Source of the DNA: a virus
Length of the DNA: 27,162 nt
IMG/VR virus record: IMGVR_UViG_3300032265_001398
Coordinates: 1-27,162 of that record
Strand: one strand, 5' to 3'
Under the pieces are notes generated by a model. That model was not told the origin of the DNA, did not search any database, and saw only the letters and a program-made list of their open reading frames with translations. Position 1 is the stretch's first letter, and every line of letters begins with the position of its first letter. Below are positions 2-25,164 of the stretch, in pieces. Both the position numbers and the translations under genes were made by a program.

Positions 2-316
2 CAAAACGCAACTAAAGGTGGATATGATGTAAGCTTAAGTTCATCCGTAGTAGGATTTTGGATGAAACCATATCAATATAATTCAAGAGTAAATTTAACA
101 CCTCAAATATTCGTAATGCAATCACCATTAGCTTGGAATACTGTTACTGGTGCTAGTACTGTAAGTAGAACACCAGGAGCAATGGTAGGGTTAGGATATG
201 ATTACAAATTGAGTAAAAGATTTGGATTTTCAGCATCTTATAAAGCATCTATGAGTTTTGGTGATAAATTCTCACTATTGAACAATATTCAAATTGGTTC
301 AAAAATGATATTTTAA
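2..316 (+). CDS. C-terminal part of a probable outer-membrane beta-barrel-like protein (5' end outside window)
   Basis: The reading frame is open from base 2 to the TAA at 314-316, so the gene begins upstream of the window; the ATG at 62 is probably internal. The visible 104 residues alternate polar and hydrophobic residues in short strands (for example GFGFSASYKAS-like stretches) and end in Phe (KMIF). A C-terminal aromatic residue on an amphipathic strand is the usual signal for outer-membrane beta-barrel insertion. I see no catalytic motif. A phage gene of this kind could alter the host surface, as superinfection-excluding porin-like proteins do, but it could also be the beta-rich end of a virion protein. 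The late-type motif starting at 316 overlaps its stop codon. The frame is certain; the function is inferred from pattern only. Confidence 0.6.
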   Translation, partial: QNATKGGYDVSLSSSVVGFWMKPYQYNSRVNLTPQIFVMQSPLAWNTVTGASTVSRTPGAMVGLGYDYKLSKRFGFSASYKASMSFGDKFSLLNNIQIGSKMIF

Positions 317-324
317 TATTTATA
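316..324 (+). promoter_or_regulatory. Putative late promoter element ATATTTATA (copy 1)
   Basis: The exact 9-mer starts on the last base of the preceding stop codon and ends 19 bases before the ATG at 344. It is followed by an A-rich leader. The same element occurs in every other plus-strand gap of 14 bases or more ahead of presumed late genes. The promoter function is inferred from this recurrence. Confidence 0.55.
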
Positions 325-343
325 TGTACAAAAACAATATTTT

Positions 344-979
344 ATGAAATTCTCTACATTAAAAAACATATTATTGATTGGTTTTATTGCTTTTTTTATT
401 TATCAATTTAAACATGGTAAGGTTACAATAGGTAAAACAACTGTTGTAGACGGTAAAAGATATGAAGTAATAAAAGAAATCCATGATACAACCGAAGTAA
501 CAAAAACAAAAGTAGTTACTAAAAAGGGTTCGGATATTTTCTATGAAACTATTAAACATGATACTATTCCTACAATAGTAGATACTAATAGTATATTAAA
601 AAATTACTTTGCAAAAAACATATACAAAGATACATTGCATTTACCTGATAATTTAGGATTTGTATTATTAACCGATACGATTACTAGAAATTTAATACAA
701 GGTAGAACATTTACTGCAAATGTTAAACAAAGAGTAATTGAAAATACAACAATTGTAAAAGAGTTACCTAAGACTAAAGTATTTTATGGTATCGAAGGTG
801 GATTTAATAAAGCTGATTTTATTTCACATATAGGAATGGGATTATTAATTAATACTAAATCTGACAAAATATTCAATTTAGGTTTGGGAGTTAATAATAA
901 GACATCCGATGGTACAAATGGTAAATTCAGTCCATATGTTAAAGGTGGAGTTTATTGGAAAATTAAATTACATAAATAA
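344..979 (+). CDS. Membrane-anchored periplasmic protein with beta-rich C-terminus
   Basis: This 211-residue protein has one N-terminal hydrophobic segment (about residues 8-22, LLIGFIAFFIYQF) flanked by lysines, consistent with an inner-membrane anchor with the N-terminus inside. The middle (25-135) is hydrophilic and rich in Lys, Thr, Val and HDT triplets. The last 65 residues form several short beta-strand-like stretches (FYGIEGGF, IGMGLLINT, FNLGLGV, PYVKGGVYWKIKL) that look like beta-hairpins. I do not recognise the family. The topology, an inner-membrane anchor plus a long periplasmic arm ending in membrane-compatible strands, would suit a spanin-like lysis protein or an envelope modifier. 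There is no lipobox. A putative late promoter element lies 19 bases upstream, and the next gene starts one base after the stop. Confidence 0.75.
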   Translation: MKFSTLKNILLIGFIAFFIYQFKHGKVTIGKTTVVDGKRYEVIKEIHDTTEVTKTKVVTKKGSDIFYETIKHDTIPTIVDTNSILKNYFAKNIYKDTLHLPDNLGFVLLTDTITRNLIQGRTFTANVKQRVIENTTIVKELPKTKVFYGIEGGFNKADFISHIGMGLLINTKSDKIFNLGLGVNNKTSDGTNGKFSPYVKGGVYWKIKLHK

Positions 980-980
980 G

Positions 981-1295
981 ATGATAAAATTAATGGGTAT
1001 TGTAACTGAAAAACCTAAAGTAAATGAATCTTTAGATATTCAGCCAGTAATAGATAAAACAGCTAAATTAACTGATAGAAATGACCATAATGGTTCTGTA
1101 TTAGAATTAGCAACATTTTTAAACGATACAAAGACTGTTAAGTTATTACAGGCAATTCAAACAATACATACAATAGAAGGTTCGATGCCATCGGAGATTT
1201 CCAAATATAGAGATAATATATTAAAAGATTTAATGAGCAAAGTTAAATCTAAATACGGAGCAGATACTGCTAAGAAAGTAAATTCTGCTTTCTAA
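981..1295 (+). CDS. Small helical protein of unknown function
   Basis: This protein has 104 residues and is largely charged and predicted helical, with no recognised motif. The open frame reaches back to 909 inside the previous gene, but the ATG at 981, one base after the upstream stop, fits the tight packing of the region; an ATG at 993 (MGIVTEKPK) is a second possibility. Its stop overlaps the next ATG (TAATG at 1293-1297), so the two are probably translated together. The gene is in the same transcription unit as the membrane protein and the Ntn hydrolase. I cannot assign a function. Confidence 0.7.
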   Translation: MIKLMGIVTEKPKVNESLDIQPVIDKTAKLTDRNDHNGSVLELATFLNDTKTVKLLQAIQTIHTIEGSMPSEISKYRDNILKDLMSKVKSKYGADTAKKVNSAF

Positions 1296-1525
1296 TGATT
1301 AGTTTAAAATCTTTATTATTTGAATCTGAAACAATTGGATATTTATCAATTCAAAGTGGTTCTAATTATTTTGAATTACCTATTGTAAAAGATGGAGATA
1401 GTTATAAATTGGATACTACTATGAATATACCATTTGCCGGTCAAACTTTTGGTTCATCCGAAGATATAAAACAAGCAGTAAATGGTAAAAATGGTGTTAC
1501 GGTATTAAAAATTATAGGAGCGTAA
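1295..1525 (+). CDS. Small protein of unknown function, coupled to both neighbours
   Basis: This protein has 76 residues. The N-terminus (MISLKSLLFES) looks like a short amphipathic helix, followed by a small beta-rich body (YLSIQSGSNYFELPIV, then SYKLDTTMNIPF). There is no signal peptide, cysteine cluster or catalytic motif. It begins with the A of the previous stop and its own stop overlaps the next start (TAATG at 1523-1527), so it is probably translated by stop-restart with the Ntn hydrolase. It may be a partner of that enzyme or a small virion protein; the sequence does not decide. Confidence 0.65.
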   Translation: MISLKSLLFESETIGYLSIQSGSNYFELPIVKDGDSYKLDTTMNIPFAGQTFGSSEDIKQAVNGKNGVTVLKIIGA

Positions 1526-2361: not shown

Positions 2362-2379
2362 TAACTTTTACTTATATAC

Positions 2380-2388
2380 ATATTTATA
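2380..2388 (+). promoter_or_regulatory. Putative late promoter element ATATTTATA (copy 2)
   Basis: This exact 9-mer lies in the 53-base gap after the Ntn hydrolase and ends 26 bases before the ATG at 2415. Its downstream flank (TATTTATAGACATACAAAAT) is nearly the same as that of the copy at 5390, so conservation extends beyond the core. Confidence 0.6.
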
Positions 2389-2414
2389 GACATACAAAAT
2401 CTAAATAAAAAAGT

Positions 2415-2807
2415 ATGTCAACGGATTTTCAATTATTTCCTGGTAAATCTTTAAGTGGTTTATTTGAGGATATTTACAACAATCAGGTTTCAAAAAAACA
2501 AAAGATTAGTTCTTTAATAGAAGAAATGAAGAAACTAATTAAACATGCAGGTGATGTAGAAACGGTAGGTACTATTGTAGCTAATCTAATTGATACTTCG
2601 GTTAAAAATGATGACCAATTGGTTAAACTTGCTAATTTGGCACAAAAGATAGTAGCAGCTGATAAAAAGAGTGAAGGACAAGATGGTTTCCTTACTGAGT
2701 TTGAAAAAAACCAATTACTTCAAGAATTAGAAGAAACTAAACAAGAAGTTGAAAGAGTAGATGACTTAGAATTTGAAATGGAAGAACTAAAAAAGAAAAT
2801 GAAATAA
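2415..2807 (+). CDS. Small coiled-coil protein upstream of the baseplate spike
   Basis: This 130-residue, almost entirely helical protein has a heptad-like, Glu/Lys-rich C-terminal coiled coil (about 88-130, ending in EEMEELKKKMK-like sequence). It is the first gene of the unit that continues into the spike and the tail lysozyme, three bases upstream of the spike start. The position suggests a baseplate or tail-assembly role such as a chaperone or a small hub component. I do not recognise a named family. The start is fixed by the promoter element 26 bases upstream and the A-rich leader. Confidence 0.75.
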   Translation: MSTDFQLFPGKSLSGLFEDIYNNQVSKKQKISSLIEEMKKLIKHAGDVETVGTIVANLIDTSVKNDDQLVKLANLAQKIVAADKKSEGQDGFLTEFEKNQLLQELEETKQEVERVDDLEFEMEELKKKMK

Positions 2808-2810
2808 AAT

Positions 2811-4052
2811 ATGGCATTAGGTACTTCAAAAAATATAGCAACCAATCATATATCAAACATACCATCTGCAACCAAAGAAGTTTTTACCGCGGTTGTCTAC
2901 GATGTAATATTAGATGAGAATCATGAATATGCTAAAAAAACAGGAGCTAATAGTGCATATATTGGTGCAATAAAATTTAGAAAAAGAACTGATTTGCACA
3001 CCGAAGATGGTAATTTACCTATCGCGTTTCCTATTGATAGAAATTTAAAATCTTTACCTGTAAGAAACGAATTAGTAAATGTAATTGAAAATGGCAATGG
3101 TTCATATTCTTATAGAAGAATCTCAGCAGATAATAATCCAAGTAGAAGTGGAGAGCCAGATATAATTTCAAAAGTATTTGTTGGAATAAAAGAACAACAA
3201 AATCATTCTAAAAATTATCATAAAGTAAGTACAACTAATATATCAAGAACAAACAAAGATGGTGGAAGAACTTATGATGGATTTGGAAAATATTATAATA
3301 TTACACAAAATTTACATAATTTAAAATTATATGAAGGTGATACATTAATTGAAAGCCGTTTTGGACAATCAATTAGATTATCTGGTTATAATAATCCAAA
3401 AAATATTTTTGCTCCAACATTAATAATTAGAAATAGAGAATCTTCTTTAAGTAATACATTACCTACAAATTCGGTAGAAGAAGATATTAATAGAGATGGA
3501 AGTACTTTAATAATGTCTTCAGGAGAACATGAATTAGGATTTGTACCTGGAACAGTTGATGATAAAGGTAAAGGTGATTTTCAAGCAAAGCCAGATACTT
3601 TTTTAGATTATCCAGATAAATTGAAAGGAGACCAATTATTATTAAGTTCAGGTAGAATTATATTATCTTCTAGAAATGCTGAAATGATATTCTATTCTAA
3701 AAAGAATTATGGATTTATTTCAGATGGTGGTATGTCAATTGATAATAAGGGTGGGTTAGATATAACGGTAAATGATGATATAAACATTGATACCAATGGT
3801 AATAATATAAATTTTAAAACAGGTGTTAATGGTACTTTATTTTTGGGTACTGGTGGTAGTACACCTCTTGAACCAATGGTTAAAGGACAACAATTAGTTG
3901 ATGTATTATCCGATTTAATAGATGCGATAGGAAATATGACTTTCTTTACACCATCCGGTGCAACTCAAGTAGGACCAACAAATGCAGCGGATTTTGGAAC
4001 TATAAAAGCTGCATTGAATAATATACTAAGTAACACAATACAAATATCTTAA
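2811..4052 (+). CDS. gp5-like central baseplate hub/spike protein (OB domain plus beta-helix needle)
   Basis: This 413-residue protein has an N-terminal beta-rich domain followed at about 174-194 by EGDTLIESRFGQSIRLSGYN, the kind of segment found in the OB/spike part of T4 gp5-like and VgrG-like proteins. From about 275 to 355 short repeating strands (LLLSSGRIILSS, then GGLDITVNDDINIDTNGNN) look like a triple-stranded beta-helix needle. A helical tail (MVKGQQLVDVLSDLIDAI) follows, perhaps a trimerisation segment. Such proteins form the membrane-piercing spike under the tail tube. T4 gp5 carries a lysozyme domain between OB and needle; here I see none, and the lytic domain appears to be in the next gene, one base downstream. 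Confidence 0.8.
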   Translation: MALGTSKNIATNHISNIPSATKEVFTAVVYDVILDENHEYAKKTGANSAYIGAIKFRKRTDLHTEDGNLPIAFPIDRNLKSLPVRNELVNVIENGNGSYSYRRISADNNPSRSGEPDIISKVFVGIKEQQNHSKNYHKVSTTNISRTNKDGGRTYDGFGKYYNITQNLHNLKLYEGDTLIESRFGQSIRLSGYNNPKNIFAPTLIIRNRESSLSNTLPTNSVEEDINRDGSTLIMSSGEHELGFVPGTVDDKGKGDFQAKPDTFLDYPDKLKGDQLLLSSGRIILSSRNAEMIFYSKKNYGFISDGGMSIDNKGGLDITVNDDINIDTNGNNINFKTGVNGTLFLGTGGSTPLEPMVKGQQLVDVLSDLIDAIGNMTFFTPSGATQVGPTNAADFGTIKAALNNILSNTIQIS

Positions 4053-4053
4053 A

Positions 4054-5364
4054 ATGTCTTGGGATATATTTAAACAGAATGTTTCAAATATGGCTAATAA
4101 TCCCGAAACAATAACGGATTTATCCATTGCAGCACATACTTACGCAGTAGAATATGATGCGTGTATGAAAAGAGGATTTAATCAAGATTTATTAGTAACA
4201 ATACAACAAGGAAATGTTGATGTTATGGAATCTTTATTTTTAGCAGCTTTTGAATTAGGATTAACTCAGCCATCTTTATACGATATTGTTGGACAAATGG
4301 GAAAGGGGGTTATTGCATATTGGGGATATGCAGAATTATCAAAAATAAATATAGCAGGAACTATACCATTGCCAACGGTAGAACAAATATCTCAAGGTGT
4401 AGCATATAATGTAAATCCTTATTTTTTATATTGTACAAACCCTGGTCAATGGCCTGATTTTTATGCATTACCACCAACAAATCCTACATCAAACATGCTT
4501 GATTTGTTTATATTATCTGCTCAAATGCATTTAACAACTATATCCGGTATAGCTTTATTTAATTCATATTATCCGGCATCATTGGTAGGAACTCTACCCA
4601 GTTTGGCAAATTGGATAACTTACACAATAGGACCTTCTCCAATATCACCAAAAGCAGATGTTAGTACTGATATAGTAGAGTGGGTTCAACAAACTCCAAC
4701 AAATCTTATAAACGAAGCTGATACAACAATATATGCAGGAGAAAATCCATATTCAAATTCTGGATTAGGTGGAATAGATGAAGTAGTTAATGATTCTTAT
4801 ATAATAAACGAACCATCTGGACAAAATCCAAATGGATATAACAAACCACCAGCTGGAAGTTATGGTACTGATATTAAACTTTCAAATGGAAATGTAGCGT
4901 ATGGTGGATTTAAAGGAAAACCAGTAGATTCATCTTATTATATTAAATCAGTTTATATCCCAGCATTAGAAAGAGTTCATTTTGATAAACCAAATGGAAT
5001 CAAAATATTAATGCAGGCACAAGCTCAATTAGAAGGATTTTATCCAAGTACTTCATCTTGGAGAACTAATAATCCTGGTAATGTGTATCCATCAAGAAAT
5101 GGTAAAATTGATAAAAGTGGATTTAGAAGTTTAGAAGATGGATTGGATGCACAATGGAAATATGTAATAGGACCTATTTTTAGTAATAAATCTAAGTATT
5201 ATAAAAAAGAAATGGGATTATATCAATACATTTCTACATATGCACCAGTTTCAGATGGCAACAATCCAACTGAATATACAAATTTTATTATAAGTTACTT
5301 TAAAAAGAAAGGAATAGCAATTACGGCTAATACAACTCTTGTAGAATTATCTAATATAAAATAA
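4054..5364 (+). CDS. Baseplate protein with C-terminal lysozyme/transglycosylase-like domain
   Basis: This protein has 436 residues. The N-terminal half (1-210) is a helical and hydrophobic structural region with no signal peptide. A Gly/Asn/Pro-rich linker (230-290) follows. The C-terminal domain (about 310-436) has a Glu in LEGFYP (E327) ten residues before RTNNPGN (337-343). That E...R-x-N-N-P-G-N arrangement is seen in phage virion-associated peptidoglycan hydrolases, where the Glu is the likely general acid. The protein would digest the cell wall locally during tail penetration. It follows the spike gene with a one-base gap, which supports a hub location and suggests that the work done by T4 gp5 alone is split over two polypeptides here. 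Confidence 0.7.
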   Translation: MSWDIFKQNVSNMANNPETITDLSIAAHTYAVEYDACMKRGFNQDLLVTIQQGNVDVMESLFLAAFELGLTQPSLYDIVGQMGKGVIAYWGYAELSKINIAGTIPLPTVEQISQGVAYNVNPYFLYCTNPGQWPDFYALPPTNPTSNMLDLFILSAQMHLTTISGIALFNSYYPASLVGTLPSLANWITYTIGPSPISPKADVSTDIVEWVQQTPTNLINEADTTIYAGENPYSNSGLGGIDEVVNDSYIINEPSGQNPNGYNKPPAGSYGTDIKLSNGNVAYGGFKGKPVDSSYYIKSVYIPALERVHFDKPNGIKILMQAQAQLEGFYPSTSSWRTNNPGNVYPSRNGKIDKSGFRSLEDGLDAQWKYVIGPIFSNKSKYYKKEMGLYQYISTYAPVSDGNNPTEYTNFIISYFKKKGIAITANTTLVELSNIK

Positions 5365-5389
5365 TAAAACCTAAAAATAAACAAGTTAA

Positions 5390-5398
5390 ATATTTATA
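5390..5398 (+). promoter_or_regulatory. Putative late promoter element ATATTTATA (copy 3)
   Basis: This exact 9-mer lies in the 54-base gap between the tail lysozyme and the next gene and ends 20 bases before the ATG at 5419. The extended flank TATTTATAAACATAACAAAT matches copy 2 closely. Confidence 0.6.
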
Positions 5399-5418
5399 AA
5401 CATAACAAATAGAAAAAT

Positions 5419-5919
5419 ATGGATACTGAAAAACTAATTAAAGCCATTCAAATCCTAATTAAAGAGGAAATTAAAGAACAACTTCCTAAAATTATTAAGG
5501 AAACTGTACAGGCTGAAATGAAAAAATTGATTGCAGAAGGTAGAAAACCTATTGCAAAAACTCAAAATACTGGTTTGAGTATGGCAAAATCTATTTTAGA
5601 AGATGAACCGATTATGGAATTTATTGAAACTAAAGTAGTACCGCAAAAAACATTTAGTAAAAACCCAATGATTAATCAAATCCTTAATGAAACTAAAGGT
5701 GGAATACCACAAGGAGATGGTGGGTATAGAACTATGAGTTTTGGTCAAGCAGATATGGGTTCAATTGTGAGTAGAACTGCAATTGCAGAAAAAATGGGAT
5801 ATGGTGAATTTGGTGGAGCAACACAAAAGACAGGACTAGGTGTTCAAACTGGTGTTGCAGAATTGGATAAGGCTTTTAATAGAGATTATTCTGAACTTGT
5901 AAAAAGATTTAAAAAATAA
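5419..5919 (+). CDS. Helical structural protein preceding gp25
   Basis: This protein has 166 residues. Residues 1-45 form a highly charged helix with coiled-coil character (KLIKAIQILIKEEIKEQL). A low-complexity Gly/Gln/Thr-rich region follows (about 95-145), and the protein ends in a short basic helix (YSELVKRFKK). I recognise no family. It is the first gene of the unit containing the baseplate wedge genes, and its stop overlaps the gp25 start (TAATG at 5917-5921), so it is probably made in step with gp25. A wedge or tail-assembly role is inferred from position. Confidence 0.75.
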   Translation: MDTEKLIKAIQILIKEEIKEQLPKIIKETVQAEMKKLIAEGRKPIAKTQNTGLSMAKSILEDEPIMEFIETKVVPQKTFSKNPMINQILNETKGGIPQGDGGYRTMSFGQADMGSIVSRTAIAEKMGYGEFGGATQKTGLGVQTGVAELDKAFNRDYSELVKRFKK

Positions 5920-6347
5920 TGGCAATAGTATTAGGTTCTAAAGTAGTAAAAGATACAAAGACGTATAACGATTATGCGATAGGAATTACTTTACCTATAC
6001 AAATCGGTAATACTGCATTTAACCAATCATTTACAACGGCTGAGCAAGTAAAATCTAATATTAAAAGTTTATTATTAACTAAAAAATATGAAAGAGTAAT
6101 GCAACCTCAATTGGGAAGCGGGTTGCAAGAATTGTTATTTGAACAAAACAATGATGATTTAGCAGATAGAATTGAAACTACTATAAATGAATCAATGAAT
6201 ACCTGGTTACCTTATGTTACAATAGAACAAGTAGATATACAACAAACAAACGAAATGAAAGATACCAATACGGTAATGGTTTCATTAAAGTTTAGAATTG
6301 CAAATGGTATTAACTTAGAGTCTTTAACTTTTAATGTACAAGCTTAA
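5919..6347 (+). CDS. 25: gp25-like baseplate wedge protein
   Basis: This 142-residue protein is typical of the gp25/GpW-gp25 family of contractile-tail baseplates. The diagnostic region is TTAEQVKSNIKSLLLTKK (40-57), followed by ERVMQPQLGSGLQELLFE (59-76), which corresponds to the family's 'R-x-x-P-x-x-G-x-x-L' core. The rest forms the expected alpha-beta sandwich. In T4, gp25 links the wedge core bundle to the sheath and helps nucleate sheath assembly. The gene directly precedes a gp6 homologue, as in many T4-like and cyanophage genomes. Translation is coupled to the upstream gene. Confidence 0.9.
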   Translation: MAIVLGSKVVKDTKTYNDYAIGITLPIQIGNTAFNQSFTTAEQVKSNIKSLLLTKKYERVMQPQLGSGLQELLFEQNNDDLADRIETTINESMNTWLPYVTIEQVDIQQTNEMKDTNTVMVSLKFRIANGINLESLTFNVQA

Positions 6348-6352
6348 CTTAT

Positions 6353-9456: not shown

Positions 9457-9457
9457 T

Positions 9458-10546: not shown

Positions 10547-10559
10547 ATTTAAAAAATAA

Positions 10560-11780: not shown

Positions 11781-11789
11781 ATATTTATT
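11781..11789 (+). promoter_or_regulatory. Putative late promoter element ATATTTATT (copy 4, one mismatch)
   Basis: The element begins directly after the stop codon of the upstream gene and ends only five bases before the ATG at 11795, filling the 14-base gap. If it works as a -10-type element, the transcript would start at or within a few bases of the start codon. Confidence 0.4.
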
Positions 11790-11794
11790 AAATA

Positions 11795-16996: not shown

Positions 16997-17016
16997 ATTG
17001 AAAATAATAATTAGTT

Positions 17017-17025
17017 ATATTTATT
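17017..17025 (+). promoter_or_regulatory. Putative late promoter element ATATTTATT (copy 5, one mismatch)
   Basis: The element sits in the 55-base gap after the giant protein and ends 26 bases before the ATG at 17052, the same spacing as copy 2. An A-rich leader follows. Confidence 0.5.
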
Positions 17026-17051
17026 TTAGAAAAAGAATAAAACATTAAAAA

Positions 17052-17681
17052 ATGGCATATTTAGATAACACGGAGATAACTGTAGATGCTATCCTTACTA
17101 AAAAGGGTAGACAAAAGTTAGCACAAGGACAATCTTTAAACATCACTAAATTCGCTTTAGGAGATGATGAAGTTGATTATGGATTATATGAACCAGCACA
17201 CCCAAAAGGTTCTGCTTATTATGATGCATTAATTAAAGCACTTCCAATTACGGAAGCAACTCCTGACGAAACTCAGGTTTTAAGATATAAATTAGTTACC
17301 CTTCCAAAAGGAACTACAATTATTTCTCAAGTTAAATTAGGTGTAAACGCAATTGCGGCAAATCAAACTGATGGTGGTATTGGATTAACACCAACTACTT
17401 CTCCTTCTGGAAATACAAATGGTGGATACACTGTGGTATTAGCAGACCAAAGAGCAGGTACGGTAACGGTAACTAAAGGTTCAGCCGCATCAGCAACTGT
17501 TCCTGTATTCTTAGGACAAGAAATTACAACTACTGCACAAGTGGTAAGTGGTTTAGAATTTAGATTTACTCCAAATCCAAACTTAACAATTGATATTGCA
17601 ACAACATTAACTGTGTATGGTAATGAAACTGGAGGTTCTCAAACTATACCTGTAACAATCACATATAAACAAGTAGTATAA
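17052..17681 (+). CDS. Tail fibre/baseplate protein with collar-type N-terminus
   Basis: This protein has 209 residues. The N-terminus (AILTKKGRQKLAQG, then ITKFALGDDEVDYGLY) matches the pattern of phage tail-collar and fibre-attachment domains, in which a 'T-x-x-G-x-x-x-x-A' helix precedes an 'I-x-x-x-A-x-G-D' strand. The C-terminal half is a compact Thr/Val-rich beta domain (TVTVTKGSAASATVPVFLG) with Ig-like character. The protein probably attaches a fibre to the baseplate rim or forms a small fibre. The next gene begins one base after its stop, so the two are likely co-transcribed and functionally linked. Confidence 0.7.
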   Translation: MAYLDNTEITVDAILTKKGRQKLAQGQSLNITKFALGDDEVDYGLYEPAHPKGSAYYDALIKALPITEATPDETQVLRYKLVTLPKGTTIISQVKLGVNAIAANQTDGGIGLTPTTSPSGNTNGGYTVVLADQRAGTVTVTKGSAASATVPVFLGQEITTTAQVVSGLEFRFTPNPNLTIDIATTLTVYGNETGGSQTIPVTITYKQVV

Positions 17682-17682
17682 A

Positions 17683-18918
17683 ATGGCACTAATTAACGAT
17701 AAAAATATAACAGGTCAAATAGCTTCATTAGCTAATGCTGGTACTGTGGATACAAACGCAATAGTAGCTCTTTTAAATCAAGCATTGCCTGCAGGACAAC
17801 AAATAAATACAGCAACTGGTCCTACCGTTGGTATTTATAAAACTTTTGCTGAATTTGATAAAGTTAATGCTAAAATAGAAGTTGTAACTGCTGGATTATG
17901 GAGTAATGACTCTGGTTCATTAACATCTTTCTATACTGCATCAACACAAACAACTGCACAAAGTGGATATTATTATACTAATGTATATAACGCAGACCCT
18001 ATATTAACTGATTCTGAAGAAGTTCAATTTGCAATTGCTTGGGGTAGTTATAATGGAAGCGGTTCAATGACATTACAGACTAATGATAATGCATTGTATC
18101 CTACAATTGCTACTTATTACCAATATAGAGCGATGTTGTTAGACCCAACATTAAATAAATTTCAATTTAATAACTCAGCTGGAATTGCAACCGATTGTAA
18201 TGAAATATATGTAATCAACATTGCAAGAAGTAGATTCAGAGAAAAAATGGATGCAGGTAACTGGTCAATGACTTTATCTGGTTCTAATGGTGTTTTTACT
18301 CTTATTGATAATAGTGGTAAGAAATTTGCTGATACTGCAGGTTTAAGTGGTAATGTATTTAGTGTTGTTTCTGGTTCTTTGAATTTAGGAACTCAAAACG
18401 ATGCAACAATTAAAAATACAACTGAAACAACAACCGGTTTAGGATATGGTGCATTCTATTCGGATAGAGGTATAATTATTCTTAACGCAAAAGCAATCGG
18501 TGCATTGGTTGGTAATTCACCAACACTTGTAGCAAATACTCCAGATGGTGTTAAAGTAATAACTGGTAACATTAGTGGTAGCTTAGACCAATCAGCTGAA
18601 CAATTTAATCAATATAGATTGTTATCAGCATTACGAGGTGGTGGACAGTTTGAAGCTCGTAGAACCGAAAATGTATCAACTCAACATTTCTTTGTAAGAG
18701 CAACAAATAGAGAGTTTAACTACTCAAATAATCCAACATATGTAAATACAAATGGTACATTTGTAGAAAGTACATTTAATACTGACCCATATACTTACAT
18801 TACAACTGTAGGTTTAATCAATGACTCAAATGAGATTCTAGCAGTAGCTAAAACTTCTCAACCAATTCCAAAATCATTTGATAAGGAAGTATTGATTAAA
18901 GTTAAATTATCATTCTAA
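17683..18918 (+). CDS. Tail structural protein, paralogue of the 18986 gene
   Basis: This protein has 411 residues. The N-terminal 60 residues are helical (IASLANAGTVDTNAIVALLN) and the rest is beta-rich. The C-terminal 150 residues share an ordered set of motifs with the protein encoded at 18986-19933: a Y-x-D-R-G-hydrophobic strand (YSDRGIIIL), EFN-x-S-x-NP (here EFNYSNNP), a DP-x-x-YITTVGLIND strand, AVAK and PI-x-K. This indicates duplication of a tail gene or of a shared domain. A tail-tip or tube-associated role is inferred from position. It ends the operon: a strong intrinsic terminator follows within 20 bases. Confidence 0.75.
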   Translation: MALINDKNITGQIASLANAGTVDTNAIVALLNQALPAGQQINTATGPTVGIYKTFAEFDKVNAKIEVVTAGLWSNDSGSLTSFYTASTQTTAQSGYYYTNVYNADPILTDSEEVQFAIAWGSYNGSGSMTLQTNDNALYPTIATYYQYRAMLLDPTLNKFQFNNSAGIATDCNEIYVINIARSRFREKMDAGNWSMTLSGSNGVFTLIDNSGKKFADTAGLSGNVFSVVSGSLNLGTQNDATIKNTTETTTGLGYGAFYSDRGIIILNAKAIGALVGNSPTLVANTPDGVKVITGNISGSLDQSAEQFNQYRLLSALRGGGQFEARRTENVSTQHFFVRATNREFNYSNNPTYVNTNGTFVESTFNTDPYTYITTVGLINDSNEILAVAKTSQPIPKSFDKEVLIKVKLSF

Positions 18919-18936
18919 TTAAAAAATAGATAATAT

Positions 18937-18961
18937 AAGAACCCCCGTAAGGGGGTTTTTC
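18937..18961 (+). terminator. Intrinsic terminator with GTAA tetraloop
   Basis: AACCCCC (18940-18946), loop GTAA, GGGGGTT (18951-18957), with further A-T/G-T pairs outward and a run of T to 18960. The loop fits the stable GNRA class. The G/C run stands out sharply from the AT-rich background. It lies 19 bases after the stop of the tail gene and just ahead of the next promoter-like element. Confidence 0.9.
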
Positions 18962-18970
18962 ATTTGTAGA

Positions 18971-18979
18971 ATATTTATA
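18971..18979 (+). promoter_or_regulatory. Putative late promoter element ATATTTATA (copy 6)
   Basis: This exact 9-mer begins ten bases after the terminator T-run and ends six bases before the ATG at 18986. Terminator and promoter-like element are back to back, so transcription would be reset here. The short distance implies a leaderless or nearly leaderless message. Confidence 0.5.
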
Positions 18980-18985
18980 GATAAT

Positions 18986-19933
18986 ATGTTAAAAGAGATA
19001 CCACAATCAGATATTATAATTAGACCTTTCAAAGTTTATAAAGAATGGACTTTGGATGAAAATGATATTCAACCATTATTTGGTCAAAATAGTAGTAGTT
19101 TCTTTATAGATTTAGATAATGCCGATAAAAGTGGTGGATTTGCCAAAGGTTTAATATATGATTCTATAAAAACTCAATTCTACACAAATGCATCAACTGC
19201 ATCTGTATTGACTGAAGTTGGGTTAAGAAAATCATACGCTTCAACTGATGAAAGAATATTAGAAAATAACATAATTGTATTACCTATACCACAACAATAT
19301 TATGGAGAAGGTATTAAAATTGGTAGTGTAGTTTTAGAAGATGAAACTTTAGGAAGAATTTATACGGATGATGGACATTCAAATTTAATAGATTCTGGTA
19401 GTAATATCAAAGGTAATATATTTTATGATAGAGGATTGATTATAATTTCAAAAGATGTTGTTAGTGGTTCTGTTATGAATAATTTTGTATTAAATTATAA
19501 TTCAATTAAAACAATTTATGAAACCGAAGTATTCATTGAAGTTTTAGAAAGTGAATTTAATGTATCACAAAATCCATCAGCCGTTTATGAAGATGGGGGT
19601 GTTATTACTACAATTCCAATTAATAGACCTGGTACAACTACTTTGAGTAATACTGATATCGTTAATTCAACATACTATAATGCTGGAACTAGATATATTA
19701 GAGGTGGAAAATATCCAATATATTCTAAATTAGACCCAACAAAATATGCAAGTTTTGATGATTATTTTATAAGTAGTTCAGCTGACCCAACAGGTTCTTA
19801 TTTAGCACCATTTATTACTACAATTGGATTGTATGATAATGAATTAAATATGGTTGCAATAGCTAAATTGCCAAAACCAATAAAATCATTACCTGATTAT
19901 CCATTGAACTTTATTGTTCGTTTGGACACATAG
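18986..19933 (+). CDS. Tail structural protein, paralogue of the 17683 gene
   Basis: This protein has 315 residues. The N-terminus (DIIIRPFKVYKEWTLDEND) differs from its paralogue. From the middle on it shares the same ordered elements: YDRGLIII near 150, EFNVSQNP near 190, then PFITTIGLYDNELNMVAIAK and PKPIKS at the end. These correspond to YSDRGIIIL, EFNYSNNP, YITTVGLINDSNEILAVAK and QPIPKS in the 17683 gene. Both probably build related parts of the tail tip or a fibre network. The gene is in a separate transcription unit behind the terminator. The ATG at 18986 is preferred because the following residues look like an ordered domain start and no earlier in-frame start follows the terminator. 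Confidence 0.75.
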   Translation: MLKEIPQSDIIIRPFKVYKEWTLDENDIQPLFGQNSSSFFIDLDNADKSGGFAKGLIYDSIKTQFYTNASTASVLTEVGLRKSYASTDERILENNIIVLPIPQQYYGEGIKIGSVVLEDETLGRIYTDDGHSNLIDSGSNIKGNIFYDRGLIIISKDVVSGSVMNNFVLNYNSIKTIYETEVFIEVLESEFNVSQNPSAVYEDGGVITTIPINRPGTTTLSNTDIVNSTYYNAGTRYIRGGKYPIYSKLDPTKYASFDDYFISSSADPTGSYLAPFITTIGLYDNELNMVAIAKLPKPIKSLPDYPLNFIVRLDT

Positions 19934-19937
19934 TGTT

Positions 19938-19946
19938 ATATTTATA
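19938..19946 (+). promoter_or_regulatory. Putative late promoter element ATATTTATA (copy 7)
   Basis: This exact 9-mer starts five bases after the stop of the tail gene and ends 22 bases before the ATG at 19969. An A-rich leader with AAAAAG follows. Confidence 0.55.
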
Positions 19947-19968
19947 TTAAGTTAAAACAATTAAAAAG

Positions 19969-20160
19969 ATGTCAATTTTAGATATTTTCACAAAAACACC
20001 ACCTAAAACATCAAAGGTGAACACAAAGATAGAGCAACAACCAATTGAAAAAAGCAAAGAAACTGATAAAGTTTTAACAAATGCTAGACATGGTGTAATT
20101 GGTGGCAACTCTGGTGGATATGATAATAATAAAACATATTCAAACTCTGTTAAAAAATAA
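19969..20160 (+). CDS. Small unknown protein
   Basis: This protein has 63 residues, with a charged Lys/Thr/Gln-rich N-terminal half and a Gly/Asn-rich tail (GVIGGNSGGYDNNKTYSN). It is probably disordered. There is no signal peptide or motif. It is supported by a promoter-like element 22 bases upstream, an A-rich leader and tight packing against the GIY-YIG gene that starts three bases after its stop. It could be a small virion or regulatory protein; I cannot say which. Confidence 0.55.
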   Translation: MSILDIFTKTPPKTSKVNTKIEQQPIEKSKETDKVLTNARHGVIGGNSGGYDNNKTYSNSVKK

Positions 20161-20163
20161 TAA

Positions 20164-20571
20164 GTGAGCTGGAAATTTAATGGAAATATAGTTACAGAAG
20201 AAAACACTCCTGAGGGTGCGGTTGGTTTTGTCTATAAAATAATACATTTACCAACTGGCAAATATTACATAGGAAAGAAATCGTTAACACAAACTCGTAG
20301 ATTAAAACCCCTTAAAGGTAAAGTTCGTAAGAGAGTTGTAAAGAAAGCATCTGATTGGGAAAAATATTACTCATCAAATGAATGGATTAAACAACAAATA
20401 AAAGAGGGTAAAGAAGAAGAATTTGTTAGAGTAATAATTCAATTTTGTTTTTCTAAAAAATCACTTACATATTGGGAAGTTTGGTGGCAATTTAAAGAAG
20501 ATGTTTTAAATAACCCACTTTCAATAAATGAAAATATTATCGGAAAATTCTTCCGAAAAGATATATATTAA
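20164..20571 (+). CDS. GIY-YIG family endonuclease
   Basis: This 135-residue protein has the GIY-YIG core: GFVYKI at 21-26, KYYIGKK at 33-39, Arg45/46 as the likely catalytic Arg, and Glu105 in YWEVWWQ as the likely metal-binding Glu. The start is GTG at 20164. An in-frame TAA lies directly before it and the family-like body begins within a few residues, so no upstream start is possible. Such small free-standing nucleases are common in T4-like phages; known members include homing Seg enzymes and DNA-degrading endonuclease II. I see no DNA-binding C-terminal repeat typical of homing enzymes, so a role in DNA degradation or processing is as likely as mobility. It forms a unit with the flanking small genes. 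Confidence 0.8.
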   Translation: MSWKFNGNIVTEENTPEGAVGFVYKIIHLPTGKYYIGKKSLTQTRRLKPLKGKVRKRVVKKASDWEKYYSSNEWIKQQIKEGKEEEFVRVIIQFCFSKKSLTYWEVWWQFKEDVLNNPLSINENIIGKFFRKDIY

Positions 20572-20582
20572 AAACACACGTT

Positions 20583-20783
20583 ATGAACATTACAGAAATT
20601 TCAAAAAAGTATGGTATTTCAGAAGCTTATCTTACTAACAAAGAAGATGGCTTATTGATTACTGCAGCATCTTTAAGAGATGTACAAGGTATGCTTGATG
20701 CAAACCAACCAAGAGGAGAAATTAAGGCTAAATTACAATTTTTAATTGATTTTTTAACTGACCTTAAAGCTTCTAATTGGTAA
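20583..20783 (+). CDS. Small protein with possible helix-turn-helix
   Basis: This protein has 66 residues and is predicted all-helical. The opening ITEISKKYGISEAYL resembles a helix-turn-helix (helix, GIS turn, second helix), although the rest is a plain amphipathic bundle (MLDANQPRGEIKAKLQFLID). It lies 11 bases after the GIY-YIG gene and ends just before the host-type promoter of the primase unit. It might regulate that promoter or simply be a small DNA-metabolism factor; the motif is weak evidence. The leader is A-rich, without a Shine-Dalgarno sequence. Confidence 0.6.
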   Translation: MNITEISKKYGISEAYLTNKEDGLLITAASLRDVQGMLDANQPRGEIKAKLQFLIDFLTDLKASNW

Positions 20784-20784
20784 A

Positions 20785-20816
20785 TTTGGTAAATTCCCAA
20801 AAAAGTTGTATATTTG
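20785..20816 (+). promoter_or_regulatory. Bacteroidota-type promoter (TTTG-N20-TATATTTG) of the primase unit
   Basis: TTTG at 20785-20788 and TATATTTG at 20809-20816 are separated by 20 bases. This matches the primary sigma-factor consensus of Bacteroidota (TTTG about -33, TAnnTTTG about -7, spacing about 19-21). The predicted start of transcription is about seven bases downstream, leaving a leader of roughly ten bases before the ATG at 20833. No ATATTTATA element is present here. Confidence 0.7.
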
Positions 20817-20832
20817 TGTATTATTATCAAAT

Positions 20833-21768
20833 ATGCTATCTGGGAAGAATAAACTAAAAATAATCACAATATTGGACTCGGCATTGGGGGTAGGCTCATC
20901 CTTAAAGGGAAATGAACAAGCCCACCATTGTCCTTTTTGTAATCATCATAAAAAGAAGTTACAAATAAATTTAGATACCCAAAGATGGCATTGTTGGGTA
21001 TGCGATTCTAAAGGTAGAAGTATATTTGGATTACTTCGTAAATTAAATGTAGATTTAAGAGATATTGGTATAGTAAAGGATGTATATGGGGATGAGCCAG
21101 AATATGACCCAAAAGAAGAATTTGTAGCTAAATTACAATTACCAAAAGAATTTAAACAATTATATTTTAAACCAAAAGGTATTAATCCTTTGTATAATCA
21201 AGCATTACACTATTTAAATAAAAGAGGTATTACACAGACTGATATTGTTAAATACAACATTGGTTATTGTGAAGATGGTTTATATTCTGGTAGAGTTATT
21301 ATTCCATCTTATGATGATGATGGTGATTTAAATTATTTTGTCGCTCGTTCTTTTTATGAGGACGAAAAAATGAAATATAAAAATCCACCTGTTAGTAGAG
21401 ATGTAATTGTATTTGAAAATATGATTAATTGGAACGAACCTATCGTACTCGTTGAAGGTGTATTTGATTCATTCTCAGTAAAGAGAAATGTAATTCCGTT
21501 GTTGGGTAAATTCTTACTTAGCAAACTCAAAAATAAAATTATGGAAAAAGGTGTTAAGAATGTAACAATTATGTTAGATTCTGATGCCATATCTGATTCT
21601 ACGAAACATACCGAATGGTTTCAAAAGAATGGAATTAAAGTAAAAAATATTATTCCAACCGATAAAGATGCCGGTGAAATGGGATTCCAAAAAGTAAATG
21701 AACTATTGAAAGGAGCTAAAGAAACTACATGGGATGATTTAGTTCTTTCAAAATTAAATAACCTATGA
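20833..21768 (+). CDS. DnaG-type DNA primase (zinc finger plus TOPRIM; T4 gp61-like role)
   Basis: This 311-residue protein would make RNA primers for lagging-strand synthesis. A zinc ribbon is formed by C33-P-F-C36 and C54-W-V-C57 (with HH at 31-32 nearby). The TOPRIM domain shows VEGVFDSF at 207-214 (the catalytic Glu208) and LDSDA at 248-252 (the metal-binding Asp pair). Length is close to T4 gp61 (342), and there is no fused helicase. The frame is open back to a TTG at 20806, but that codon lies inside the promoter, so the ATG at 20833 is the likely start. The stop overlaps the next start (ATGA at 21765-21768), so primase and the Mre11-Rad50-like protein are coupled. Confidence 0.9.
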   Translation: MLSGKNKLKIITILDSALGVGSSLKGNEQAHHCPFCNHHKKKLQINLDTQRWHCWVCDSKGRSIFGLLRKLNVDLRDIGIVKDVYGDEPEYDPKEEFVAKLQLPKEFKQLYFKPKGINPLYNQALHYLNKRGITQTDIVKYNIGYCEDGLYSGRVIIPSYDDDGDLNYFVARSFYEDEKMKYKNPPVSRDVIVFENMINWNEPIVLVEGVFDSFSVKRNVIPLLGKFLLSKLKNKIMEKGVKNVTIMLDSDAISDSTKHTEWFQKNGIKVKNIIPTDKDAGEMGFQKVNELLKGAKETTWDDLVLSKLNNL

Positions 21769-24700
21769 ATAAATTAAAAACAATTTATCACATTGCGGAT
21801 ATACACATTCGTAATATTAAAAGACACAAAGAGTTTAGAGAAGTATTTAACTCAATGTTTGAGGAGATTAGAAAGAGAGGAACTGAGGATGCTATTATTT
21901 ATTTAGCTGGAGATATAGCTCATGCTAAATTGGAAATGAGTCCTGAATTGGTAAAAGAAATTAGTTGGTTATTAACTGAATGTTCTAATACCTGTACAAC
22001 TATTATGATTGCTGGTAATCACGATTGTAATATGAATAATTCGGATAGATTGGATGTACTTACTCCAATTGTAGATGCATTAAAATTACAAAACCTACAT
22101 TACTTAAAAGATACTTCAGTATTTTATTATGGTGAATGTGAATTTGCTGTATTTTCTATATTTGATAATCAGGCTAATTGGCCTAAAGCAGAAGATTTAA
22201 TTGCAGAGAAAAAGATTGCATTATTTCACGGACCTGTTGATAACTCTACAACCGATGTGGGTTATGTGGTTAGTAGTAGACACTTTACAACTGATATATT
22301 TGATGGATACCATTTAGCTCTATTAGGAGATATCCATAAAAGACAAGAGATGATATCACCAAGCGGATGTAAGGTGGTATATGCCGGCTCTTTAGTACAA
22401 CAAAACTTTGGTGAAACCCTTGATAAGCACGGATTTTTAGCTTGGGATTTAGATACAATGACTTACGAAGAAATTGATATCAAAAACGATTATGGTTATT
22501 ACACTTTGGATGTTGATGGTGGTATTGTGCCGGATGTAACTGATATGCCATTGTATCCTCGTTTAAGAGTAAGGGTAAGTAATACTGATACTGCGGATAC
22601 TAAGAGGATGATGGCTGATATTACTGCAAAATATGGTGTAGAAGATTTTACAATCATTAGAACCGATTCATTTAATAAGAAAAAGACAAATGATAGAGAA
22701 ACTAGATTAGAAGTTGATACCGTATCCGATATTAATCATCAAAACTCTTTAATAGGAGAATATGTTGAAAGAATGATGCCATTTGTGACAAAAGAAGATT
22801 TGGCTGGAATTGAAGCAATTAATAGAGATGTAAATAGTAGAATAGTAAGTGATGATACACAACGAAATGTAAGTTGGAAGCCGGTAAGATTTGAATTCTC
22901 CAATATGTTCAGTTATGGTGAGAACAATGTAATTAACTTTGATAAGGTAAATGGATTGATGGGATTGTTCGCACCTAATGCAGCTGGTAAATCATCTCTA
23001 TTTGATTCTATTTCATTTTGTATGTTTGATAAATGCAGTAGAGCTTATAAAGCAGCATCCATAATGAACAATAGAAAGCAGGACTTCCATTGTCAATTGG
23101 ATTTCCTTATTGATGGTCTGGAATATTCAATCAGAAGGGAAGGAAGAACAATTAATAAGGGAAGAAATGTAAAAGTAGATGTGGACTTTTGGAAAAATGA
23201 AAATGGTGAAAAGATTTCCCTAAATGGAACTGAAAGAAGGGATACAAATCAAATCATTGAGGGATATGTGGGAAGATATGAAGATTTTGTTATGACTGCT
23301 CTATCACTACAAGCTAACAACGCTCTATTCATTGATAAATCACAATCGGAGAGAAAGGACTTGATGGCTCAGTTTATGGGATTGGATATATTTGATAAGT
23401 TATATGAAACTGCTACTAATGATATTAAGGATGTGAACGCACTTATCAGAAATTTCAAAAGGACAGATTTCACAACCGACCTGGCGCAAAAAGAAACAGA
23501 ACTTTCTGAAAAGAAAATTGAATATGGGGAATTGGATTCTGAAAAAACTGATTTAGAAAATAAAAAGAATGATTTAGATGAAAGAATAATATCTTTATCT
23601 CAATTAATAGTTCCAATTCAAGGTAATTTAAATATCAATGTATTAAACGATAAATTAACAAAAGCGCAAGCTGAATTAACAAAATGGGATGATTTAAGAT
23701 TTAAAACAACCTTATTACATACTGAAACAAAACAATTAGTATTTGAAGCAAAAGAAATGGTTGATGCTAAGAGTACAATTAATGGAAACGATATTGGAGA
23801 AGCAATTATAGAGTTCAATGATTTAAAAACTCAAAAGAATAATCTTCAACATCAAATAGATTTATTAGAACAATCAATAGAATCTAATAAAGAAAAATTG
23901 GCACACTTAGAAGAAAATGATTATGACCCTAATTGTCAATATTGTTTAAATAATGTATTTGTAAAAGATGCTTTTAAAACAAAAGATGAATTAGAATTAC
24001 AGGCTACTCAAATGGAAACTTTAAATACACAACTTCATCAATTGGTAGCAACATTAGCATTAATATCAAATGTTGAAGACCAATTCCGTCAATGGAAACA
24101 ATGGAGTGATGAGCATAGTAGATTAATTGGTGTAAGAGAAAGATACGATGGTGATATTAGAACAATGGAAGCGAGAATAGAGTTGATAAAAAATCAATTA
24201 GAAACTGCAGAAGCTGATATTCAACGATATAATGAGAACGAAGAAACTATTACAAAGAATGCTGCTTTAGAAGTTCAAATTGATAATATTCGTAGAGAGA
24301 AGCAAGGTGTAGAAAAACAAATATCCGAGGTAAATAAATTAATGTTACGATTGATGTCAGAAGTAGGTTCTACTAAAACTTATATCGATAATATGGTTGC
24401 TAAAATGGAAGAAGTAAAAGAATTGGAAACTAAAAACCAATTATATACATTCTATTTAGATGCGGTTAAGAAAGATGGAGTTCCTTATGAACTTATTACC
24501 AAAGCTTTACCAGCAATAGAGAATGAAGTGAACAATATATTAGGACAAGTGGTTGATTTTTCAATATCAATGGATACCGATGGTAAGAATATCAACGCTA
24601 AGATAGTTTACGAGGACCAGGAATGGGCTTTAGAGATGTGTAGTGGTATGGAGAAGTTTATATCAGGTCTAGCGATTAGAGTGGCTCTAATTAACATCTG

Positions 24701-24911
24701 TAACCTTCCTAGACCTAACTTCTTAGTAATAGATGAAGGGTTTGGTACATTGGATGCAGACAACTTATCATCCCTATTTATGATGATGCAATATCTTAAA
24801 ACTCAATTTGATTTTATTTGGGTAATTTCTCACTTAGAACAAATGAGAGATATTGTAGATGGACTTATTGAAATTAAAAAGATAGATGGGTTTTCTAAGA
24901 TTAACTTTTAG
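21765..24911 (+). CDS. Fused Mre11/SbcD nuclease and Rad50/SbcC ATPase (gp47-gp46 fusion)
   Basis: This 1048-residue protein combines both halves of the recombination nuclease complex. Residues 1-340 are a metallophosphoesterase with D12-I-H14, G49-D50, G84-N-H-D87, H155-G and G188-D-I-H191. From about 370 an SMC-like ATPase begins, with Walker A at 400-411 (APNAAGKSS), a long coiled coil with a central C724-Q-Y-C727 zinc hook, the signature C-S-G-M-E-K at 959-964, and Walker B/D-loop VIDEGFGTLD at 988-997. In T4, gp47 and gp46 are separate polypeptides that resect DNA ends for recombination-dependent replication. Here the frame runs unbroken, with no internal stop or separate start context. 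It is coupled to primase by ATGA. A terminator follows 20 bases after the stop. Confidence 0.92.
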   Translation: MNKLKTIYHIADIHIRNIKRHKEFREVFNSMFEEIRKRGTEDAIIYLAGDIAHAKLEMSPELVKEISWLLTECSNTCTTIMIAGNHDCNMNNSDRLDVLTPIVDALKLQNLHYLKDTSVFYYGECEFAVFSIFDNQANWPKAEDLIAEKKIALFHGPVDNSTTDVGYVVSSRHFTTDIFDGYHLALLGDIHKRQEMISPSGCKVVYAGSLVQQNFGETLDKHGFLAWDLDTMTYEEIDIKNDYGYYTLDVDGGIVPDVTDMPLYPRLRVRVSNTDTADTKRMMADITAKYGVEDFTIIRTDSFNKKKTNDRETRLEVDTVSDINHQNSLIGEYVERMMPFVTKEDLAGIEAINRDVNSRIVSDDTQRNVSWKPVRFEFSNMFSYGENNVINFDKVNGLMGLFAPNAAGKSSLFDSISFCMFDKCSRAYKAASIMNNRKQDFHCQLDFLIDGLEYSIRREGRTINKGRNVKVDVDFWKNENGEKISLNGTERRDTNQIIEGYVGRYEDFVMTALSLQANNALFIDKSQSERKDLMAQFMGLDIFDKLYETATNDIKDVNALIRNFKRTDFTTDLAQKETELSEKKIEYGELDSEKTDLENKKNDLDERIISLSQLIVPIQGNLNINVLNDKLTKAQAELTKWDDLRFKTTLLHTETKQLVFEAKEMVDAKSTINGNDIGEAIIEFNDLKTQKNNLQHQIDLLEQSIESNKEKLAHLEENDYDPNCQYCLNNVFVKDAFKTKDELELQATQMETLNTQLHQLVATLALISNVEDQFRQWKQWSDEHSRLIGVRERYDGDIRTMEARIELIKNQLETAEADIQRYNENEETITKNAALEVQIDNIRREKQGVEKQISEVNKLMLRLMSEVGSTKTYIDNMVAKMEEVKELETKNQLYTFYLDAVKKDGVPYELITKALPAIENEVNNILGQVVDFSISMDTDGKNINAKIVYEDQEWALEMCSGMEKFISGLAIRVALINICNLPRPNFLVIDEGFGTLDADNLSSLFMMMQYLKTQFDFIWVISHLEQMRDIVDGLIEIKKIDGFSKINF

Positions 24912-25074
24912 TAACTGGTAATACATTTTTAGGTAGAGGTTTCTTTGAAGCTTCTACCTTTTCTTTTATAAGGGACTCTATTAATCCATTTATTTTATAT
25001 CCTCTTTCTTTACAAAATTCTTTTAATAATTGATGTATTTCTGCATCAATTTGTATCATTGCATACTTTTTCAT
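24901..25074 (-). CDS. Small ribbon-helix-helix (CopG/Arc-like) DNA-binding protein
   Basis: This gene was read from the minus strand: ATG at 25074-25072, stop TAA at 24903-24901, 57 residues. The layout fits a ribbon-helix-helix repressor: an N-terminal beta-strand (YAMIQID, 4-10), helix A (HQLLKEFCKERG), a turn, helix B (INGLIESLIKEKV), then a basic Pro-rich tail (KKPLPKN). Such proteins dimerise through the strand and bind direct or inverted repeats, often in front of their own gene. It is convergent with the Mre11-Rad50 gene, overlapping its last 11 bases, and divergent from the tail gene at 25165. A tandem repeat lies in its upstream region. It is likely a repressor of one or both divergent promoters. 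Confidence 0.75.
   Translation of the reverse strand: MKKYAMIQIDAEIHQLLKEFCKERGYKINGLIESLIKEKVEASKKPLPKNVLPVTKS
24932..24967 (+). terminator. Intrinsic terminator of the primase/SbcCD unit, inside the antisense RHH gene
   Basis: GGTAGAGGTTTC (24932-24943), loop TTT, GAAGCTTCTACC (24947-24958) form a 12-bp stem with two G-T wobbles, followed by TTTTCTTTT (24959-24967). It starts 20 bases after the TAG of the fused nuclease gene. On the minus strand the hairpin is followed by TAAAAATG, with no T-run, so it should stop only plus-strand transcription. Confidence 0.75.
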
Positions 25075-25078
25075 ATGG

Positions 25079-25123
25079 TTTCTTTAGATTTATATAGTTT
25101 TCTTTAGATTTTTCTTTTGATTA
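25079..25123. repeat. Tandem 13-bp direct repeats, candidate RHH operator
   Basis: TTTCTTTAGATTT occurs exactly at 25079-25091 and 25099-25111, and with two mismatches at 25111-25123 (TTTCTTTTGATTA). The two exact copies are 20 bases apart, about two helical turns, and lie immediately upstream of the minus-strand RHH start at 25074. On that strand they flank an ACTATAT segment that could be part of its promoter. The operator role is inferred from position and known RHH behaviour. Confidence 0.5.
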
Positions 25124-25135
25124 TAATTATTCAAA

Positions 25136-25144
25136 ATATTTATT
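25136..25144 (+). promoter_or_regulatory. Putative late promoter element ATATTTATT (copy 8, one mismatch)
   Basis: The element lies in the divergent region between the RHH gene and the next tail gene and ends 20 bases before the ATG at 25165. It is 12 bases from the third repeat copy, so a protein bound to the repeats could influence it. Confidence 0.5.
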
Positions 25145-25164
25145 TTATATAATCAAAGAATAAG

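Follow-up and report, generated by a model that had tools for sequence, protein, structure and literature searches.

In the 27-kb IMG/VR virus contig IMGVR_UViG_3300032265_001398 (27,162 nt, positions 1 to 27,162; the whole of it is called the window here), the short word ATATTTATA and its variant ATATTTATT recur in front of plus-strand genes, several of which encode tail and baseplate proteins. We wondered if this word, called the late box below, acts as a promoter of virion genes and which factor would then read it. Our analysis points, with a probability of roughly two in three, to ATATTTAT(A/T) as the core of a single-box late promoter in T4-related contractile-tailed phages of Bacteroidota, probably read by a gp55-like phage sigma factor. 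Copies of the box in the window are the following:

316..324, plus strand: late box ATATTTATA before gene 344-979; its first base is also the last one of the preceding stop codon, and it has no orthologous gap
2380..2388, plus strand: late box ATATTTATA before unit 2415-5364, whose gene at 2811 is homologous to the first baseplate-operon gene of Flavobacterium phage immuto
5390..5398, plus strand: late box ATATTTATA before unit 5419-10546, with genes for gp25 of the baseplate (Pfam GPW_gp25, 3.3e-14) and for a gp6-like wedge protein of the baseplate
11781..11789, plus strand: late box ATATTTATT within the 14-nt gap before the gene of a 1733-aa tail protein (11795-16996)
17017..17025, plus strand: late box ATATTTATT before tail genes 17052-18918 (gap 16997-17051; kept in 37/38 orthologous gaps)
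18971..18979, plus strand: late box ATATTTATA before tail gene 18986-19933 (gap 18919-18985; kept in 51/51)
19938..19946, plus strand: late box ATATTTATA before the 19969 unit (gap 19934-19968; kept in 24/24)
25136..25144, plus strand: late box ATATTTATT before the gene starting at 25165 (gap 25075-25164; kept in 40/42)

Placement and conservation of the box

All eight coordinates are exactly those given in the original prediction, an earlier reading of this DNA which took the word for a shared element ahead of late transcription units. It also claimed a copy for each plus-strand gap of 14 nt or more other than the primase gap, and this proved correct: the box is present in gaps of 27, 53, 54, 14, 55, 67, 35 and 90 nt and absent from the 49-nt gap 20784-20832. 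In total, 11 matches to ATATTTATW are found on both strands of the window versus 8.6 expected. Since this count is near expectation, the signal consists in placement and not in over-representation. Eight of the nine plus-strand copies lie in the intergenic 1.9% of the window (binomial P = 1.4e-13), the sole copy inside a gene being that at 12021. Minus-strand copies occur at 4344 and at 11776, where the copy overlaps the one at 11781. A plus-strand box is found in 8 of the 11 gaps of at least 10 nt, a minus-strand box in none, and in 5000 dinucleotide shuffles of the window gaps the box never appeared in more than three. An artefact of the composition of AT-rich gaps would agree with the total count, which does not exceed that of shuffles; it is contradicted by the gap-wise shuffles, by strand asymmetry and by conservation of orthologous boxes beside divergent flanks (see below), and we give it next to no credence. 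The copies at 316 and 11781 are individually the weakest, because they overlap or abut the preceding stop codon and have no alignable orthologous gap.

Conservation was estimated in 80 IMG/VR contigs with SbcCD proteins 63-90% identical, supplemented with longer stretches of several relatives (among them G001, of 274 kb, G003 and G004). The closest annotated records are Microcystis phage Mel-JY01 (190 kb), uncultured phage LR756508 (484 kb) and Flavobacterium phage immuto (160 kb), the annotation and host of the latter being independent of the present analysis. Outside annotated records, genes were called as longest open reading frames (ORFs). The core ATATTTAT is present in 208 of 322 distinct upstream gaps (81 loci), where 19.6 are expected. 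The original prediction would suffer if the box were as frequent inside genes as expected; it withstands this comparison, with a density of ATATTTAT of 0.043 per kb in genes versus 8.2 per kb in upstream gaps, which is an approximately 190-fold difference.

When orthologous gaps were identified through their downstream gene, the box turned out to be kept despite diverging flanks in the four gaps for which counts are listed above. Orthologues of the primase gap lack it altogether (0/57), as had been claimed for the window, and contain the motif TAnnTTTG instead (53/57). This pattern, with the box kept where the original prediction had placed it and none at the primase gap, is the strongest single result of our analysis.

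Boxes are oriented towards the downstream gene in 39 gaps of G001 and reversed in 2; the corresponding numbers are 25 and 3 in G003 and 20 and 2 in Mel-JY01. This bears on the suggestion that the box is related to the T4 late element but read in the opposite sense. The exact reverse-complement relation between TATTTATA and TATAAATA invites the idea of such a reversed element, in which TATAAATA would lie on the opposite strand and drive divergent transcription. The suggestion is not borne out: the strand bias of G001 and G003 contradicts it, and forward TATTTATA already matches TATAAATA at 6/8 positions, so that no reversal is needed. Moreover, TATAAATA itself is not enriched in upstream gaps of relatives (30 vs 25.8 expected, to be compared with 208 vs 19.6 for ATATTTAT). 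A reversed T4 element is thus very improbable.

To describe the architecture, a profile was built from 86 independent sites, i.e. sites whose downstream genes are not orthologous. It reads ATATTTATA with weak AT preference upstream, and no -33/-35 or other second box is found in these sites. The first profile had suggested a further, TTgGG-like element at -21..-17. It reflected redundancy among orthologous gaps together with terminator sequence, and is gone from the 86 sites. The longer flank of copies at 2380 and 5390 (...NNCATA) that had been pointed out earlier is real. It is confined to these two copies and missing from the profile, and CATA was rejected as part of the element. The position 12 nt from the box start is a purine in 80% of the sites and never C; the probable transcription start, counted from the first base of the box, is 12-13 nt downstream, which would leave short 5' leaders. 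T4-type late promoters start transcription about 6 nt downstream of their box. The late box would accordingly be a single -10-like element working without -33/-35 and forward, towards the downstream gene.

Downstream genes and the host-type class

If the box drives late genes, it should be associated with virion units. In immuto, TATTTATA is found ahead of the terminase and portal genes, the prohead operon and genes of virion structural proteins, as well as those of tail sheath and tail tube, baseplate hub, tape measure and a tail spike; the late box is found at 14/19 virion units versus 0/5 replication units (P = 0.006). In G001 it precedes units of sheath, tube, hub, tape measure, lysozyme, portal, protease and head completion, whereas TAnnTTTG precedes those of DnaB, PolA, primase and SSB, the last one having both boxes. 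When immuto, Mel-JY01 and G001 are pooled, the late box accompanies 29/49 virion and 2/14 replication units (P = 0.003), TAnnTTTG 1/49 and 6/14, respectively (P = 0.0003). The view of the box as a shared upstream element of late, that is virion, transcription units is thus supported, and we infer late timing.

Two further features of the window are relevant here:

18942..18960, plus strand: intrinsic-terminator-like hairpin (CCCCCGTAAGGGGG followed by TTTTT), directly upstream of the late box at 18971; also in the listed orthologues
20785..20816, plus strand: host-type (Bacteroidota sigma-A) promoter TTTGG-N19-TATATTTG, with TTTGG at 20785 and TATATTTG at 20809, before primase and the SbcCD (gp46/47-like) gene

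The hairpin marks a predicted border of transcription units, and the word GGGGGTTT is enriched in upstream gaps. The host-type site is the only one in the window; its TAnnTTTG box has an upstream TTTG at fixed spacing. Fifty sites from relatives aligned on TATATTTG display ATTTGG at -25..-20 and TTCG before TATATTTGT in near-invariant geometry. For sigma-A of Bacteroidota, 5'-end sequencing in Flavobacterium psychrophilum has mapped the -7 box TAnnTTTG (PMC9723704), and the TTTGG...TATATTTGT sites are, judged by their sequence, the sigma-A promoter of this phylum. A scan of window positions 16900-27162 for E. coli-type sigma-70 promoters was uninformative (58 sites vs 64.7 in shuffles).

The gene behind the host-type site encodes a DnaG-type primase. 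Its mechanically called ORF starts with TTG at 20806 and overlaps the promoter box (20806-20832); the probable true start is ATG at 20833, as in orthologues. The 1048-aa SbcCD-like protein (21765-24911) unites SbcD-like and SbcC-like parts, corresponding to T4 gp47 and gp46, in one chain, and has a full-length homologue in Mel-JY01.

For uncultured contigs, host-type promoters also give a pointer to the phylum of the host. Eight contigs were assigned to bins of metagenome-assembled genomes, and no clear host emerged from this search. Mel-JY01 (PP395634), the recorded host of which is Microcystis elabens, carries the late box and TATATTTG boxes (8 forward, 2 reverse) like phages of Bacteroidota, and its host assignment deserves a check. 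In the immuto early region (NC_055915, 60000-77000), more than 12 small genes have the same long and conserved sequence upstream, AGTTGC(C/T)T...TATATTTAGGTATCAATAATTAAAA; it is probably a strong early promoter of this phage and a variant of the host -7 box.

Could the late box be an RNA-level element (a signal for mRNA stability, processing or translation) and not a promoter? It lies 13-48 nt before start codons (median 28 nt) in a phylum without Shine-Dalgarno sequences. The spacing is, however, not fixed, and the box stands before gap-preceded genes and not before tightly spaced ones (35/163 vs 1/166 in G001, 27/106 vs 1/103 in immuto), which fits a promoter but neither a ribosome-binding nor a coding feature. 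Further, at 18942-18979 and in the listed orthologues it directly follows a terminator hairpin, and before primase its place is taken by a separate host-type promoter. We therefore consider an RNA-level role improbable.

Another possibility is that host sigma-A, assisted by a phage activator or appropriator, reads the late box, ATATTTAT being a degenerate TAnnTTTG box. T4 middle promoters are used in such a way, by means of AsiA and MotA. ATATTT is common to both boxes, and the box TATATTTAGGTAT of the immuto early region is intermediate between them. On the other hand, the ATATTTATA boxes do not qualify as sigma-A promoters, the G of the -7 box being always replaced by AT and the -33 TTTGG, near-invariant in the host-type class, being absent from the 86 independent late sites. 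The six sigma motifs of F. psychrophilum that were mapped according to PMC9723704 all differ from the late-box sequence, and a sigma-like phage protein is available (see below). Reading by sigma-A is on balance unlikely, and we prefer a phage sigma factor as the reader of the box.

The candidate sigma factor and other genes

The original prediction had proposed to look for a gp55-like late sigma factor, and a candidate for it does exist in relatives (immuto, Mel-JY01 and freshwater contigs). When ten large contigs were searched with Sigma70_r2, two matches below threshold appeared, both in one orthologous protein of 229 aa (P0001), and the family was pursued from there. Its members include KNV73_gp118 of immuto (YP_010114565) and WWT39502 of Mel-JY01, both annotated as "hypothetical protein", as well as proteins of LR756508, of six of the ten large freshwater contigs and of hundreds of IMG/VR stretches. 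Among Pfam families, Sigma70_r2 is matched by the largest number of members (27/48; best E value 0.008, none of the matches shown over the curated cut-off).

To specify the relationship, an alignment of the gp55 family was built from T4, Acinetobacter, RB43, Vibrio, cyanophage, Caulobacter, Sinorhizobium and Stenotrophomonas phages. HHalign compared it with the P0001 family at 89% (E 2.3e-6), collinearly across the first 113 residues; with a wider alignment the match was 67% (E 5e-5) and concerned the N-terminal half only. The AlphaFold model is of moderate quality, with a pLDDT of 78, and its best named neighbours among viral and PDB structures are mostly sigma factors, including late ones. 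Foldseek matches to sigma region 2 structures reach a probability of 0.85 and a target TM of 0.6, but with E near 1. PDB sequence searches with P0001 and its alignments brought nothing useful. The C-terminal half, outside the gp55 alignment, is a helical pair ending ...LYLLIREMTG-HPTHYITKVVNKMKE and may be a helix-turn-helix. It is plausible that the protein is gp55-like, which is less than a proven membership in the gp55 family.

In G001 the sigma operon is preceded by the host-type promoter TTTGG-N19-TATATTTGT, in G003 and G004 by TTTGG...TATCTTTGT. A late box is located upstream of the sigma unit in only 4/124 loci; in the remaining loci neither promoter class was recognised there. The host-type promoter at the sigma operon, together with the rarity of the late box in this place, fits a cascade from host sigma-A to phage sigma to late boxes. 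Early in infection, host RNA polymerase with host sigma-A would transcribe units with TTTGG-N19-TATATTTG, such as primase in the window and the sigma operon in the three relatives. The gp55-like sigma would then redirect host RNA polymerase to ATATTTATA boxes of tail, head and packaging units.

Several observations weigh against reading of the box by this protein or against a role of the box in late transcription. Direct hmm search with the gp55 family phrog_234 gave no match, no PDB structure matched the candidate with E below 0.001, and pTM of the model is only 0.46. Neither the window nor any of its 15 nearest fragments contains the sigma gene. Its place in G003 and G004, some 25 kb upstream of gp25, falls outside the window. 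In G001 the late box is also found at two units of the replication class, SSB and a nuclease, the capsid gene (gp23) lacks it in immuto, G001 and Mel-JY01, and Mel-JY01 taken alone gives no significant association (4/13 virion vs 0/3 replication units). Finally, neither the late box nor a host-type Bacteroidota promoter was found in LR756508. Co-occurrence of sigma and box holds in part: immuto and Mel-JY01 have both, whereas LR756508 carries the sigma homologue without the box, so that the two do not strictly occur together.

LR756508 has tail genes in addition to the homologous sigma-like gene. Either its host phylum or its promoter code must differ.

Two small ORFs of the window merit mention. 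The GTG-started ORF 20164-20571 matches phrog_447 ("NAD synthetase") and homing-endonuclease families, and its Mel-JY01 neighbour is annotated as GIY-YIG; the name of phrog_447 is probably wrong. The 57-aa ORF 24901-25074 on the minus strand has weak ribbon-helix-helix matches (RHH_4, E 0.044; RepB-RCR_reg, E 0.012). Opposite it, at 25079-25119, two exact copies of TTTCTTTAG and one variant TTTCTTTTG are found, and CTAAAGA occurs at most 140 nt upstream of its homologue in 55/61 distinct relatives. It looks like an autoregulated ribbon-helix-helix repressor with putative tandem operators.

Comparison with known systems

No published late promoter or late sigma factor of this phage group was found in the literature searched. 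The box and the candidate sigma (KNV73_gp118; WWT39502) make late control testable in a cultured Flavobacterium phage, and with the help of the box operons and late genes can be recognised in hundreds of contigs from metagenomes.

The Bacteroidota sigma-A promoter occurs in the same genomes as the late box and shares ATATTT with it. It differs in its rigid -33 TTTGG and obligatory terminal G of the -7 box, and it is situated before replication genes and the sigma operon instead of virion units. Phage extracytoplasmic function (ECF) and sigma-70-like factors are represented among Foldseek matches by the sigma-E factor of Bacillus phage Shanette, with which the predicted fold can be aligned in both of its halves (245 columns, E 1.1e-3). 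Unlike such factors, the candidates form a separate family that has no Pfam region 2 or 4 match over the curated cut-off and no functional annotation.

The T4 late promoter TATAAATA, at positions -13 to -6, is read by gp55 together with gp33 and the gp45 sliding clamp, and phage Aeh1 has a diverged box, CTAAATA, alongside a diverged gp55 (PMC1524935). What we describe resembles this system in having a short single AT box with no -35 element before virion genes of T4-related phages, and a distant gp55-like sigma in relatives. It differs in the box consensus, which is ATATTTATA, and in the helical C-terminal half of the candidate sigma that extends beyond the gp55 alignment. Moreover, the DNA polymerase annotated in immuto is of family A. 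Search with phrog_223 detected no gp45 homologue in G001 to G003, Mel-JY01, immuto or LR756508, the T4 control being positive, which leaves room for a very diverged clamp. Since gp45 was not found and the immuto polymerase is of family A, the clamp step may be missing or may be performed by something unrecognised. We tentatively propose, as a possibility short of even odds, that in phages with family A DNA polymerase a two-part sigma, made of a gp55-like N-terminal and a helical, possibly DNA-binding C-terminal half, would alone direct Bacteroidota RNA polymerase to single-box ATATTTATA promoters, the coupling to a gp45 clamp having been lost. These phages would then offer an instance of T4-like late transcription that may dispense with the sliding clamp of T4.

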